The notes under the pieces were generated by a model. It saw nothing but the letters and a program-made list of their open reading frames with translations, ran no database searches and was not told the DNA's origin. The position numbers and the translations under genes were made by a program. 37,908 nucleotides of DNA from Clostridiales bacterium (GTDB lineage: Bacteria > Bacillota > Clostridia > Oscillospirales > Acutalibacteraceae), in contig JAAYKB010000093.1 in NCBI GenBank assembly GCA_012522615.1, positions 1 through 37,908 of the forward strand, in the 5' to 3' direction. Shown one piece after another: positions 16,202 through 23,533 of the stretch (within the stretch, counting starts at the first letter, position 1; each line of letters begins with the position of its first letter).

Positions 16202-16457
16202 ATATTATCCCCCTTTTTATTAAATTCCCGAGGATACCAACGGCTCGATTACCTTTAAGTTTGCCCGTTTTATGTATGATTTAACCATTCCACCCCCACA
16301 TCGGTATTAATTCTTGCTTTTTTTATTATATAAGGATATAATGCATTCATAAAATTTACCTCAATAAAGGCATACTCCTATCGTCATGCGGGAATAATTG
16401 GAATCAAGCCAACTAACCGCAGTATTAAAATCGGCGACCGGAAAGGAATTGAAAGCC

Positions 16458-17171
16458 ATGTCGGACATAACCGAAAGCACAAAAAAAGCAGAGAAAACCG
16501 GGGAGAGGAAGCCTCGATTTACCACTGAAAACTGCTTGAACGGGATGCTTGCCGCCTCGGTGTTGCAGATTGTGCTCGCCCTGCTGCTCTATCTGCTGGC
16601 GTCGGTCAAGATGGAATTGCTCCTTATTGAAACGGCGGTTGGGGTTGCACTTACCCTGTCTGCATATTTTAAAGCTGACGAGCGTGTGCCATGTATCCTG
16701 CTTCGAGTAATTAATATATTTTTGCTATGCGGAGTTCTGGCGTTCGGCATCGGGATTATTGTTGCATCCTACTTTATGCTTGCGTCATCCGGCGAACCCA
16801 ATCTGCAAATCGAGTATTCACAGATTATTTGGATAATCCTGCCGTTTATCGTGCTGCCGCCGCTGCTTTTTCTGCAGACCGTGTTTGCAATTACGGCAAG
16901 ATACCGCAGAAGGTTTGACCTTGTGCTGGCGAGGATTAATGGGATCCTGGTTTTGGCTCTGTCGCTGATTCTCTGCTTTATTTCGCTGGAATATCGTCAG
17001 GGAGGCGAAAGGCTGATCCTTACCTCCTTTACCACGCCAAAGGTTTTTGGATATGATTTTACCATTGCTATTGATAATATCATTACACGCGCTGTTTTTT
17101 GTGTTTGCAGTATCGCATATGTGGTGTTTGCATTTAAGCTGCGCTCAATGCCTGACAAATCAAAAAAGTAA
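16458..17171 (+). CDS. Hypothetical multi-TM membrane protein
   Basis: MSDITESTKKAEKTGERKPRFTTENC..., several hydrophobic segments; RBS GGAAAGGAATT before ATG 16458; family not recognised. Confidence 0.75.
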   Translation: MSDITESTKKAEKTGERKPRFTTENCLNGMLAASVLQIVLALLLYLLASVKMELLLIETAVGVALTLSAYFKADERVPCILLRVINIFLLCGVLAFGIGIIVASYFMLASSGEPNLQIEYSQIIWIILPFIVLPPLLFLQTVFAITARYRRRFDLVLARINGILVLALSLILCFISLEYRQGGERLILTSFTTPKVFGYDFTIAIDNIITRAVFCVCSIAYVVFAFKLRSMPDKSKK

Positions 17172-18610: not shown

Positions 18611-19327
18611 CTATGCAATCGGGTATTGCTTGCCTTTGATAATCTCGAGGGAAAACCTCTCGTATTGGTTAAGCCAGTCTTTCCCGAGTTTAGACTGTAT
18701 GACCGATTTCACCGCCTTTAAATCGTCGGGTTGTCTTGTTCCGACATTGTGGCAGTCGCTCCCGAACACAACGGTATGCCCGTCCTTAATCCATTTTATC
18801 ACGGCTTTTCTAAGCTTGCTTTCAAATAATGCCCGATAATTAACCTGTATAACAGCGTCGTCAAAATCAATTATTTCGTTGATTGCGTCTTGATTATATA
18901 TGGTGATATAGCGGTCAAGATGGGCAAATATCGGGGTGAGAGACTGGTTGATGCAAAGGTTATAAACCTCATCAATAAACCAGCTTTCGTATGCCGAATA
19001 AGGCAGCTCCACCAGAAGATAGTCGGTACCTTCAAAACATAGAGGACGAAGGTTAAGATTCTGCACGTCATGCTCTATATATACCTCGGCTGCCGGAATA
19101 ATAACCGGCATCCCTTCCCGCCTGCTGCCGTTTAATAAATCGAGCGAGTTTTGTCTTATCCTGAGAAAGTCGTCAAGTCCCTGCTTGTGGGGATAAAAAT
19201 GAGGAGTAGCGACCAGAATGCCCACACCCTGCTTTTCGAGCATGGACATCATCTCGAGCGACATTTCCAAATCCCTTGCGCCGTCGTCAATGCCGGGAAG
19301 GATGTGCGAATGAAAATCTACAAACAA
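18611..19327 (-). CDS. CpsB/CapC family PHP-type tyrosine-protein phosphatase
   Basis: MFVDFHSHILPGIDDGARDLEMSLEMMSMLEKQGVGILVATPHFYP; TTG start with RBS AGGAGG. Confidence 0.94.
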   Translation of the reverse strand: MFVDFHSHILPGIDDGARDLEMSLEMMSMLEKQGVGILVATPHFYPHKQGLDDFLRIRQNSLDLLNGSRREGMPVIIPAAEVYIEHDVQNLNLRPLCFEGTDYLLVELPYSAYESWFIDEVYNLCINQSLTPIFAHLDRYITIYNQDAINEIIDFDDAVIQVNYRALFESKLRKAVIKWIKDGHTVVFGSDCHNVGTRQPDDLKAVKSVIQSKLGKDWLNQYERFSLEIIKGKQYPIA

Positions 19328-19475: not shown

Positions 19476-20219
19476 CTATACTGAATCTTTGGAGTATTTA
19501 TAGTGCCCGTATCCGTAAAAATTAGTATTTACTGTTCTGGAATCATTGAAGATGACTCCAAGTATGTTTACTTCCGCAAATTCACAGCTTTCAATGGCCT
19601 TTTTAAGCTGGTCGTGGCGAGAACTCCCATGTCTTATGACAAGCAGGACTCCCGCGGTCTGTTTTGCAACAATGATTGCGTCGGATACAATATTTAACGG
19701 GGATGCGTCAAGAACAACATAATCATATGCTTTTTGAACGATTGCCAGCAGGTCGGACATACGGGTGGAACCGAGCAACTCCGAGGGGTTGGGAGACAGA
19801 GGACCTGCCGTAATAACATCAAGATTGGGGGCAACATTTTCATGCAGCGCGTCTTCAATCTTATCAATACCGCAGAGTATGCTTGTAAGACCTTTATTGG
19901 TCGGCAGCTTAAAGAACTGATGCACCGAAGGCTTGCGAAGGTCGCAATCCATCAGCAGAACCTGTGCGCCGGTCTGTGCCAACACCATAGCAAGATTGAC
20001 AGATGTTGTCGATTTGCCTTCGTTGGGCATGGCGCTTGCAACGACCACGGTCTTGCTGGTCTTGGTTGCAAGGGTGAATAAAAGATTGGTTCTTATAGTT
20101 TTAAATGCCTCTCGCACATGAAAGGGGGCCGATTCGTTTAACAGAATGCCGTCCGCAGGCTTTCTTCTTTTTGTGGAAGTAAAATCAACGACATTCTTTG
20201 CAGGCTTGGTTATGCTCAT
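19476..20219 (-). CDS. CpsD/CapB family BY-kinase (tyrosine-protein kinase)
   Basis: FHVREAFKTIRTNLLFT, ASAMPNEGKSTTSVNLAMVLAQTGAQVLLMDCDLRKPSVHQFF; C-terminal Tyr cluster YGYGHYKYSKDSV. Confidence 0.95.
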   Translation of the reverse strand: MSITKPAKNVVDFTSTKRRKPADGILLNESAPFHVREAFKTIRTNLLFTLATKTSKTVVVASAMPNEGKSTTSVNLAMVLAQTGAQVLLMDCDLRKPSVHQFFKLPTNKGLTSILCGIDKIEDALHENVAPNLDVITAGPLSPNPSELLGSTRMSDLLAIVQKAYDYVVLDASPLNIVSDAIIVAKQTAGVLLVIRHGSSRHDQLKKAIESCEFAEVNILGVIFNDSRTVNTNFYGYGHYKYSKDSV

Positions 20220-20222
20220 GAC

Positions 20223-20915
20223 CTAGTATCCTCCTTTTGTCTGAGAGTTCAATACCGGTATCGAACCAAGTACCGGTATGTTATACAACTTTTTTATCTC
20301 ATCTTCACCCTTTACACGCAAATCAAGCATGTCCCTAAGCACAATATACAATACCGATACGAAAAGCCCCAACATAATTCCGAATATACAATTCAGACTT
20401 AAATTCGGCGAAGAAGGTCTAGTAATAGGTTTGGCATAATCAATGACCTTGATAATACCGGTTTCTGTGAAGTCTTTAATAATATCGGGGGCGGTTCTTG
20501 CAATCGCGTTGACGATTTCCATGGATTTTTTCGGACTGTCGGAAGTAATCGAAATATTCATAATCTGCGTTTCCTGAGCAGTTGAGACTGACATCATTCT
20601 TCTAATCTGATTAGAGGTGTAGGGGAGATTATGATTAAGAACTACCTCATCGAGAACCCTGTCGCTCTTGATTAAACTTGTATATGTATTGACGACCTTC
20701 TGTGCGGTTATCACATCGTAATAGTCGCTGCTGCTGCTCGAGGATTTTTGAGAGCCCGAAACATACAGTTGGACAGTCGAAGTGTACATAGGCTTTAATA
20801 ACAGCTTGGTAATACCGAATGCGCCTAAAAGACCGATAAGACATGCAAGCAGAATCACCCAGATGTTTTTAAAAAGTAATCGGAAAAGCGCCAGTAAATC
20901 AAGAGAACCATGCAC
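20223..20915 (-). CDS. Wzz/YveK family polysaccharide chain-length regulator (BY-kinase modulator)
   Basis: N- and C-terminal TM segments; PMYTSTVQLYVSG; A-KPITRPSSPN proline-rich segment (YAKPITRPSSPNLSLN). Confidence 0.93.
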   Translation of the reverse strand: MHGSLDLLALFRLLFKNIWVILLACLIGLLGAFGITKLLLKPMYTSTVQLYVSGSQKSSSSSSDYYDVITAQKVVNTYTSLIKSDRVLDEVVLNHNLPYTSNQIRRMMSVSTAQETQIMNISITSDSPKKSMEIVNAIARTAPDIIKDFTETGIIKVIDYAKPITRPSSPNLSLNCIFGIMLGLFVSVLYIVLRDMLDLRVKGEDEIKKLYNIPVLGSIPVLNSQTKGGY

Positions 20916-21011: not shown

Positions 21012-21350
21012 TAGAAGATTGTCAAATTAAATAGAACTTTAGAAAAAAATTTTTAACATTTACTTTATTGAATTTTTTAGAAATTTTCCGGATTAAACAC
21101 CCGCAGTCTGTAACAGGTAAAGTTGTTGGGTATAATCCGGTCTAAAGCACAAAATATTTATGATTTTAATTTTTGCATGCCTTTTGCATGTGTTATCATG
21201 TATTATAGCAATAAAAGTGCCAATAATCGTATATAATATACGTATAAATGGATACAGATAAAATAAAATTATAATATATTAGCTAAAAGTTATATGTCAA
21301 AATTTACAAAAAATTGCGATTAAAATAGAAAATAATTTAACATTTGGCAG

Positions 21351-21379
21351 TTGCCATTTTTTATATTATGATGTATAAT
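21351..21379 (+). promoter_or_regulatory. Sigma-A promoter of the sortase locus
   Basis: TTGCCA (21351-21356), 17 nt, TATAAT (21374-21379). Confidence 0.7.
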
Positions 21380-21441: not shown

Positions 21442-21993
21442 ATGAAAAAGGTTTTCGCAACGATTATATGCTTTATCATTGCTACAGCGGTAGCGATAAG
21501 CGCGTCTGCTGCCGGACTTGATGCAAACAAACAGAAGGTCCTGGATGCCCTTAAAGAAAAGGTAACGGCAAACGGAAAAACCTACTCTGTGCCTGCCGAT
21601 CTTATTACACAGGCCGAAAATTATCTGAAGAGGGATGATGTTACCATCACCGCCGATCAGGCAGACGCTATTGTAGAGCAGATTGAGGCTGCGGCCGAGA
21701 TTGTCAAGAAAGCCGGGGTTTCCACCGCTGCCGAGCTGAGCGCAGCAGAAAAGACCGCTTTGCTTGAAAAAATCAATGCTGCCGCAGAGGTTGTTAACCT
21801 GACCGTTTCGGTAGATTCGGCCAAAGGGAAAATCACGGTTTTGTCCGGAAATGAGCTGGTTGCTTCCGACGAGGGTGCCATCAAATTTACAGGCGTTGAT
21901 GTCTCATATCTTGTGGTTCTGGCAGCTTCGGTAGTTGCGCTTCTTACCGGATGCTATGTTGCCGCCCGTAGGATGAGGCTGTTTTCCAGATGA
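21442..21993 (+). CDS. Putative secreted, sortase-anchored protein with non-LPXTG sorting signal
   Basis: Signal peptide MKKVFATIICFIIATAVAISASAAG; C-terminus IKFTGVDVSYLVVLAASVVALLTGCYVAARRMRLFSR (motif, hydrophobic stretch, basic tail); RBS AAAAGGAG. Confidence 0.75.
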   Translation: MKKVFATIICFIIATAVAISASAAGLDANKQKVLDALKEKVTANGKTYSVPADLITQAENYLKRDDVTITADQADAIVEQIEAAAEIVKKAGVSTAAELSAAEKTALLEKINAAAEVVNLTVSVDSAKGKITVLSGNELVASDEGAIKFTGVDVSYLVVLAASVVALLTGCYVAARRMRLFSR

Positions 21994-22670
21994 TTCGACG
22001 CAATTTTATAAAAAAGGGAGCAATGGTATATTTATATTTGCCATTGCTCCTTTGCACGATTGGATATATTATCATGTATATTGTGCTCTATCCCATTGTT
22101 CGACCCGTCCTATCATCCATGAACCTGATAATTTCCGAAAACAAACCCGATTACTCATCAAAGATTACTTCTATATTTAAGGATGAAGATGCGGGTTTTC
22201 TGGATTCGGAAACAGTGAATGAGAAGGACGTGGTTATGCCAACCTACGGCACCCATTATGCCCGCCTTGAAATCAGCTCGGTGTCGATTAAAACCGATCT
22301 GTATTTTGGGGACAGTACCGCCGTGCTTAAAAAGGGGGTAGGGCAATATATTGGGAGCTCTATACCGGGTTATGGAAAACCGTTGCTTATAGGCGGACAT
22401 AACATCAGCGCCTTCCGGGCGCTTCAGCATGTTAAAAAGGGAGATACTGTGGTAATAACGACAAACTACGGAGTATATAAATACGAGATTACCGGCACAA
22501 AGGTCGCTGATCATCGGGACAAAAAGGCATATGACCTTTCTCAGGAAAAGGAGCAGTTAATCCTTTATACATGCTATCCTTTCAACAAGCTCGGACTTAC
22601 CTCCAAGCGTTATTTTGTCTATGCCGATAAGGTTTCCGGGCCGAGAATAGTATCCGCTCCGGCAGTATAA
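21990..22670 (+). CDS. Sortase, class D-like
   Basis: N-terminal TM; catalytic His in IGGHNISAF, Cys in LILYTCYPFNKLG, Arg in SKRYFVYAD; ATGA overlap with the upstream gene. Confidence 0.9.
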   Translation: MIRRNFIKKGAMVYLYLPLLLCTIGYIIMYIVLYPIVRPVLSSMNLIISENKPDYSSKITSIFKDEDAGFLDSETVNEKDVVMPTYGTHYARLEISSVSIKTDLYFGDSTAVLKKGVGQYIGSSIPGYGKPLLIGGHNISAFRALQHVKKGDTVVITTNYGVYKYEITGTKVADHRDKKAYDLSQEKEQLILYTCYPFNKLGLTSKRYFVYADKVSGPRIVSAPAV

Positions 22671-22690: not shown

Positions 22691-23533
22691 ATGAATAAGT
22701 TCCTTGTTTCACAGGTCATCAGTGCTATACTGTCATTTTTAATGATGATTTGTATAACAGTGTTGGCAACCTCTATTTGTTTGTCACTGACATTTTTTCG
22801 CCCAGGTTTTATTACCGAACGGATGAATGACAAATACTACAATTTGGCGCTGGACTCTCTCAGACAAACCCTGAAAGATGAGATTGCGCCCCCCAGCCAT
22901 ATGCCGGAAGAGGTGTTCGGCGAGTTGTTTAACGTTTACCTTATTGAAGAGGACTCTCAGGAAAGTGTTCGGGCAATACTTGAAGGCATTGATTATTTTC
23001 ATGATTCCTCGCAGGTTCGTAAGATGGTTATGGACAGGTTTATTAAATATGCCGAGGAAAACAATATTGACCATGCCGAAACAAATCTCGAAGCACTTGC
23101 CGATATCTGCATCGAGGAATATAAACGTCAGATCAGCGTACCCTATTTAAAGAGCTTCGCGCCTATCAGGCATATGTTCCAGGAGGCATTCACATATATG
23201 ATTTTGATTCTTTCTTTTCTTTTGATTCTGTTGCTCTTCTTTTTGTTCGGAATCCACAGATTCAAGCACCGCGCGTTAAGATACTGTATTTACAGTCTTT
23301 TTGCATCGGCTTTGCTGATGATTCCTATTCCGCTCTTCTTATTAATCCAGGGCGCCTATAATAAAATCAACTTATCACCGGAGCATGTCAAGATGCTGTT
23401 CACATCAATGATAAGTTCAACATTACTGTCTTTAGTACTCTGCGGTGCTTTGATTGCCGCTGTCGGCGGAGGCTTGATTCTTGTGGTGCGGAGTATGAGA
23501 TACAAGGCTATCAGAGGCGGGAAAAAGTATTAA
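22691..23533 (+). CDS. Hypothetical membrane protein of the sortase locus
   Basis: N-terminal TM, ~130-aa predicted extracytoplasmic region, three C-terminal hydrophobic segments; RBS GGAAAGG. Confidence 0.78.
   Translation: MNKFLVSQVISAILSFLMMICITVLATSICLSLTFFRPGFITERMNDKYYNLALDSLRQTLKDEIAPPSHMPEEVFGELFNVYLIEEDSQESVRAILEGIDYFHDSSQVRKMVMDRFIKYAEENNIDHAETNLEALADICIEEYKRQISVPYLKSFAPIRHMFQEAFTYMILILSFLLILLLFFLFGIHRFKHRALRYCIYSLFASALLMIPIPLFLLIQGAYNKINLSPEHVKMLFTSMISSTLLSLVLCGALIAAVGGGLILVVRSMRYKAIRGGKKY

Follow-up and report, generated by a model that had tools for sequence, protein, structure and literature searches.

A class D-like sortase paired with a predicted [IVL]KxTG-tagged substrate and linked to capsule genes in Clostridia

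The two overlapping genes at 21442 to 22670 most probably belong to a dedicated sortase subfamily that reads an [IVL]KxTG sorting signal, transfers its substrate to peptidoglycan and is linked to capsule genes; we put this reading at roughly 80%. On the sequence data, the pairing of a sortase with its substrate is well supported, and both conservation and covariation speak for a shift of specificity to lysine. The window, meaning the whole 37,908-nt stretch that was analysed, is one contig of a 1.92-Mb draft genome. The first-pass annotation of this DNA had described a sorting-signal-like end without the LPXTG proline and an ATGA overlap with a class D-like sortase gene, and its coordinates and sequence were right. 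Absent from it were lysine as the rule at P3, the third gene of the cassette, and the linkage to capsule genes.

Substrate gene and predicted sorting signal

The substrate gene (21442..21993, + strand) encodes a secreted protein of 183 aa with a signal peptide, a folded domain, and a KxTG sorting signal. The ORF begins with ATG at 21442 downstream of AAGGAG, its C-terminal end IKFTGVDVSYLVVLAASVVALLTGCYVAARRMRLFSR reaches 21990, and the stop codon occupies 21991-21993. The signal peptide, assigned from the sequence to residues 1-23 (21442..21510, +), has a KK n-region, a hydrophobic core, and an ASA cleavage site, and its residues 2-19 are helical in the AlphaFold model of the substrate. Residues ~28-142 form a folded alpha/beta domain. 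Beyond it lie IKFTG (residues 147-151; 21880..21894, +), the predicted sortase recognition pentapeptide, and the membrane anchor (21901..21990, +), composed of a transmembrane helix at residues 154-182 in the model and the basic tail ARRMRLFSR in the sequence. The protein thus combines a signal peptide with a C-terminal motif, transmembrane segment, and basic tail, which is the architecture of a cell wall sorting signal, and cleavage is expected after Thr150.

The pentapeptide was the only segment of the AlphaFold model with pLDDT <50. In an alignment of 35 substrate homologues, Thr150 was the only invariant column; Lys148 (31/35) and Gly151 (30/35) ranked next in conservation across the mature protein. 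A protein whose most conserved part lies in a disordered linker has the look of a protease or transpeptidase site.

Neither Pfam nor NCBIfam had a family matching the substrate by itself, and none was matched consistently across the 35 homologues. No curated LPXTG-anchor family was detected at E<=1 or among the families matched by these homologues; one homologue weakly matched a Streptomyces LAETG-protein model (0.001). Foldseek returned no fold match for the substrate (best E, 0.76).

Sortase gene and its relation to known classes

The sortase gene (21990..22670, +) starts at 21990 within the ATGA overlap and encodes a class D-like protein of 226 aa with an N-terminal transmembrane helix. It belongs to the sortase superfamily by its match to Pfam PF04203 (4e-22; 78.6 bits against a cut-off of 26.6). 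The catalytic residues His137 in GHN (22398..22400, +), Cys195 in LYTCYP (22572..22574, +), and Arg207 in SKRY (22608..22610, +) were all invariant in the 35-member sortase alignment. The AlphaFold model (pLDDT 89.7) had Clostridium perfringens SrtD (4d70) as its best structural match, and Bacillus anthracis SrtD (2ln7) was also among the PDB matches.

The NCBIfam class D models were the best curated matches but stayed under their cut-offs: the window sortase scored 102 of 165 bits with NF033746 and 110 of 140 bits with NF058671, and the 35 sortase members, with best E values of 8e-32 and 8e-33, still fell short. The LPXTA/LPXTG signal expected of class D was also largely missing, as proline occupied P3 in 3/125 pairs. 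For class E, NF033747 gave 40.5 against 160 bits, and alanine occupied P3 in 4/125 pairs. In its workings the system resembles those of classes D and E, yet it falls outside the curated definitions of both.

Class D, represented by B. anthracis SrtD (LPNTA) and C. perfringens SrtD (LPQTGS), provided the best sequence and fold matches and shares the triad and the small catalytic domain. A class D sortase encoded in an operon with its own substrate gene, as here, has been described (PMC4498605). Unlike class D, the present system has the [IVL]KxTG signal, a 'GD' (Asp108) where 2ln7 has 'GA', and genomic linkage to capsule rather than to sporulation genes. Class E, represented by Streptomyces coelicolor SrtE1 (LAXTG), likewise uses a signal without the P3 proline, but there P3 is Ala and the hosts are Actinobacteria, whereas P3 here is Lys. 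Class E with Ala at P3 is the best known exception to the P3 proline. About 90% of known sorting signals have proline at this position (PMC5148588). In Clostridioides difficile, SrtB is a clostridial sortase with a non-LPXTG signal, (S/P)PXTG, which it cuts between T and G (PMC4155245). It differs from the window sortase in being class B and in keeping the P3 proline, and NVQTG was not cleaved by SrtB.

Conservation of the KxTG motif

Homologues of both proteins were gathered from 300 same-family genomes, 291 same-class genomes, and a named genome collection (Ruminococcus bromii, Clostridium methylpentosum, [Clostridium] fimetarium, Anaerocolumna, Diplocloster, Anaerobium, Faecalimonas, Parasporobacterium, and many MAGs). 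This yielded 126 adjacent substrate-sortase pairs from Oscillospirales- and Lachnospiraceae-type Clostridia, with 86 substrates left below 60% identity. The motif was scored in 125 pairs, about a dozen positions being set by eye after the automatic finder. P4 was Ile (80), Val (28), or Leu (10) in 118/125; P3 was Lys in 108, Ala in 4, and Pro in 3; P2 could be any residue; and P1' was Gly in 114, Ala in 5, and Asp in 4. Thr occupied P1 in 125/125 scored pairs, a count that reflects the finder's requirement for Thr, so the 35-member alignment is the fairer test of this residue. The homologous pairs thus have a conserved TG adjoining the transmembrane segment, as had been anticipated from the single sequence. 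The novel specificity proposed at that time is supported, while the suggested motif form xKFTG/TGxD is not: the conserved form is [IVL]-K-x-T-G, with Lys specifically replacing Pro. Some pairs carry non-Lys motifs (FAVTA, IIQTG, VQVTG, and S-x-D-T-A), and P3 Lys is therefore a preference. No paper was found in the literature on IKTTG/KXTG together with sortase.

When searched with a profile of the sorting signal, the window's genome and 5 of 6 other genomes each had a single strong match; the next-best matches had E of about 0.002 and did not include the motif part. In the sixth genome (G132), the paired gene, whose motif is IAKTG, had a weak score. The earlier proposal of a one-substrate sortase agrees with one clear sorting signal in 6 of the 7 genomes. 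A bare DNA pattern, [hydrophobic]KxTG, was discarded as too unspecific, giving 166 matches compared with 86 in a reversed control.

Separately, two G132 proteins (L221 and L223) end in LPSTG and IPKTA signals, so several sorting signals coexist with the cassette in that genome.

Pairing of substrate and sortase

The intergenic distance was <=20 nt in 119/124 pairs. By a count of hit lists in the family sample of 300 genomes, a full-length substrate occurred in ~53 and a clade sortase in ~56, in almost the same genomes. Within the window's genus, members lacking the substrate also lacked the sortase, except for one genome (G001), whose sortase is close to the end of a contig. The close spacing and near-matching presence support the dedicated sortase-substrate pair suggested by the first-pass annotation.

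In one Clostridiales MAG (JAATEU010000276.1; L186:2081-3502), substrate and sortase form a single ORF of 474 aa with VIKNTG between them, a fusion that could conceivably stem from an assembly frameshift. Two substrate paralogues with no adjacent sortase, L018 (G028:C31) and L031 (G180:C182), kept the transmembrane segment and basic tail and lost the motif, which is replaced by VAVPVQPNGN and IVVPLKPDERL, respectively. These data bear on whether the TG-transmembrane-tail end is an ordinary C-terminal membrane anchor, its likeness to a sorting signal and the neighbouring sortase being unrelated. The lack of a match between the substrate and a curated LPXTG-anchor model would fit such an anchor. 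Against it stand the motif loss in sortase-less paralogues, the gene fusion, the gene pairing, the invariant Thr in a disordered linker, and the occurrence of LPFTG at the homologous site, and we regard it as highly improbable.

Some sortases of the clade have other neighbours. Upstream of L092:2280-3002 lies a different protein of 273 aa with LGTQTG, and residue 108 of this sortase is Thr, not Asp. Extra clade-like sortases were seen near the cassette, on the opposite strand and with no KxTG partner alongside (L134:10750-11520, L137 at 10676, and L127:7617-8288).

Lysine versus proline at P3

Same-family substrates with Pro at the homologous site were found as LPFTG in two related genomes (L198 and L199) and as LPPTG in a third locus (L036). 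In the sortase tree, the LPFTG/LPPTG pairs branched within the KxTG clade or at its base, a placement with rough support and some long branches, and the outgroup sortases paired with LPKTG or LAKTG proteins.

Sortase residues that could read P3 were sought by covariation. Position 120 (Tyr120; 22347..22349, +), where the beta3/beta4 loop begins, was chosen as the best of ~140 sortase columns tested; it was Tyr in 96/108 Lys-type pairs, Ser in 3/3 Pro-type pairs, and Phe in 6/13 other pairs. Among non-redundant pairs, Tyr120 occurred in 59/71 with a basic P3 and in 4/14 with another residue (Fisher p = 1e-4, a value that ignores shared ancestry). Counterexamples are INQTG with Tyr and IKATG with Phe. 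Tyr120 is thus a candidate P3 reader. In class E, a Tyr of the beta3/beta4 loop has been suggested to form a bond with the P3 amide, which is missing in proline (PMC5148588); Tyr120 is likened to this residue, Tyr229 of SrtE1, by loop position only. The second candidate partner of the P3 Lys, Asp108 in the beta2/H2 loop ('FGD'; 22311..22313, +), was acidic in 100/100 Lys-type pairs in a first count. A Lys-specific pocket at Asp108 became less likely when the LPFTG/LPPTG pairs also proved to have Asp there; being acidic in Pro-type pairs too, the position marks the clade and is a less convincing contact for the lysine.

The Pro-type pairs could suggest an ordinary LPXTG/LPXTA sortase of relaxed specificity that merely tolerates KxTG, with no special role for the P3 Lys. 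LPFTG, LPPTG, or FAVTA in some pairs of the clade would agree with this, as would the class D (LPxTATN-type) models being the nearest curated ones. We nevertheless consider it improbable: Lys is present in 108/125 pairs, K-type pairs run across the tree, the outgroups are of the LPKTG/LAKTG type, and the scores stay below the class D cut-offs. Retention of Lys across a deep clade argues that P3 is not drifting.

Proposed reaction of the sortase

In the reading that we prefer, a dedicated KxTG sortase, the 183-aa protein would be exported via its signal peptide, as its sequence indicates. According to the model, it would then fold outside the membrane, held by the C-terminal helix with the flexible IKFTG exposed. 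The sortase, held in place by an N-terminal helix of its own, would recognize [Ile/Val/Leu]-Lys-x-Thr-Gly in place of Leu-Pro-x-Thr-Gly. A P3 Lys would restore a free backbone NH and add a positive side chain, and it is probably recognized by Tyr120 and Asp108, as suggested by the covariation and by the class E Tyr for P3 Ala. Given the intact triad and the invariant Thr, Cys195 is predicted to attack the Thr150-Gly151 bond. From sortase biochemistry, the substrate would then be moved to a cell wall nucleophile, most likely a peptidoglycan precursor.

A large coherent clade with P3 Lys would bring protein ligation a new specificity, and it offers a natural data set on how sortases read P3. Searches confined to LPXTG overlook such predicted wall proteins in abundant gut bacteria, e.g., R. 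bromii.

Third gene and capsule neighbourhood

Directly downstream, a third cassette gene (22691..23533, +) encodes a membrane protein of 280 aa with an N-terminal transmembrane segment, an extracytoplasmic region of ~140 aa, and three C-terminal transmembrane segments. Of the 78 loci whose flanks were long enough, 65-68 have a homologue directly after the sortase gene, separated from it by a median of 13 nt. The product matched no Pfam family.

Divergent from the cassette are capsule/EPS genes for a Wzz-type chain-length protein (20223..20915, -; Pfam Wzz, 5e-18), a CpsD-like tyrosine kinase (19476..20219, -; Pfam AAA_31), and a CpsB/CapC phosphatase (18611..19327, -; Pfam CpsB_CapC, 1.4e-32). 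Capsule/EPS core genes (CpsB, CpsC/Wzz, CpsD, and sugar transferase) occurred within ~6 kb in 44/78 loci, mostly divergent from the cassette as in the window; in Diplocloster and Anaerobium, cpsB-cpsC-cpsD follow immediately after the cassette in the same orientation. The remaining 34/78 loci had no capsule core gene in the available flank, in some since the contig ends.

Upstream of the cassette, TTGCCA-17-TATAAT (21351..21379, +) resembles a promoter with 11/12 consensus positions, as a pattern match only. This site and another strong promoter-like one at 21271-21300 (-) lie back to back in the interval separating the capsule genes from the cassette, an arrangement that suggests joint regulation of the two.

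A sortase gene in a capsule cluster has been reported for Mediterraneibacter gnavus, where srtB4, locus RGna_12035, is needed for capsule presentation (PMC13121745). Its authors name the enzyme class B and suspect unique signals (PMC13121745). We liken the two systems by the capsule-cluster setting and the published description, not by sequence, and thus take srtB4 as a precedent for a capsule role rather than as evidence of clade membership. Why capsule display needs a sortase, the puzzle posed by M. gnavus, becomes directly testable through the linkage described here.

The capsule linkage and the srtB4 precedent would also accord with a sortase that acts as a hydrolase or uses an acceptor other than peptidoglycan (polysaccharide, a lipid carrier, or another subunit), giving a released or polymer-linked protein. 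We judge this unlikely, as the substrate alignment shows no obvious conserved pilin-like motif with a Lys, and sortases other than pilin sortases attach their substrates to peptidoglycan by default. It departs from the KxTG-sortase reading in the acceptor only, and the confidences in the two overlap.

With transfer to peptidoglycan as the preferred outcome, the cassette, including the third membrane protein, would work beside capsule/EPS synthesis. It is quite possible, judging from the linkage, that the cassette helps the wall hold or present polysaccharide. More speculatively, the sortase may represent an unrecognized class whose tagged partner forms, with the third membrane protein, a wall-side capsule tether or organizer in gut and anaerobic Clostridia. 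Such a tether, if real, would be a Gram-positive counterpart of the sorting systems tied to exopolysaccharide.

Two further observations were made in this genome. A second sortase (L015; G000:C71:3220-3690) resembles class B and has a long, charged N-terminal region in the cytoplasm. In the window, a 257-aa ORF at 16398-17171 (+), with no Pfam match, lies near genes for SpoIIE and a penicillin-binding protein.
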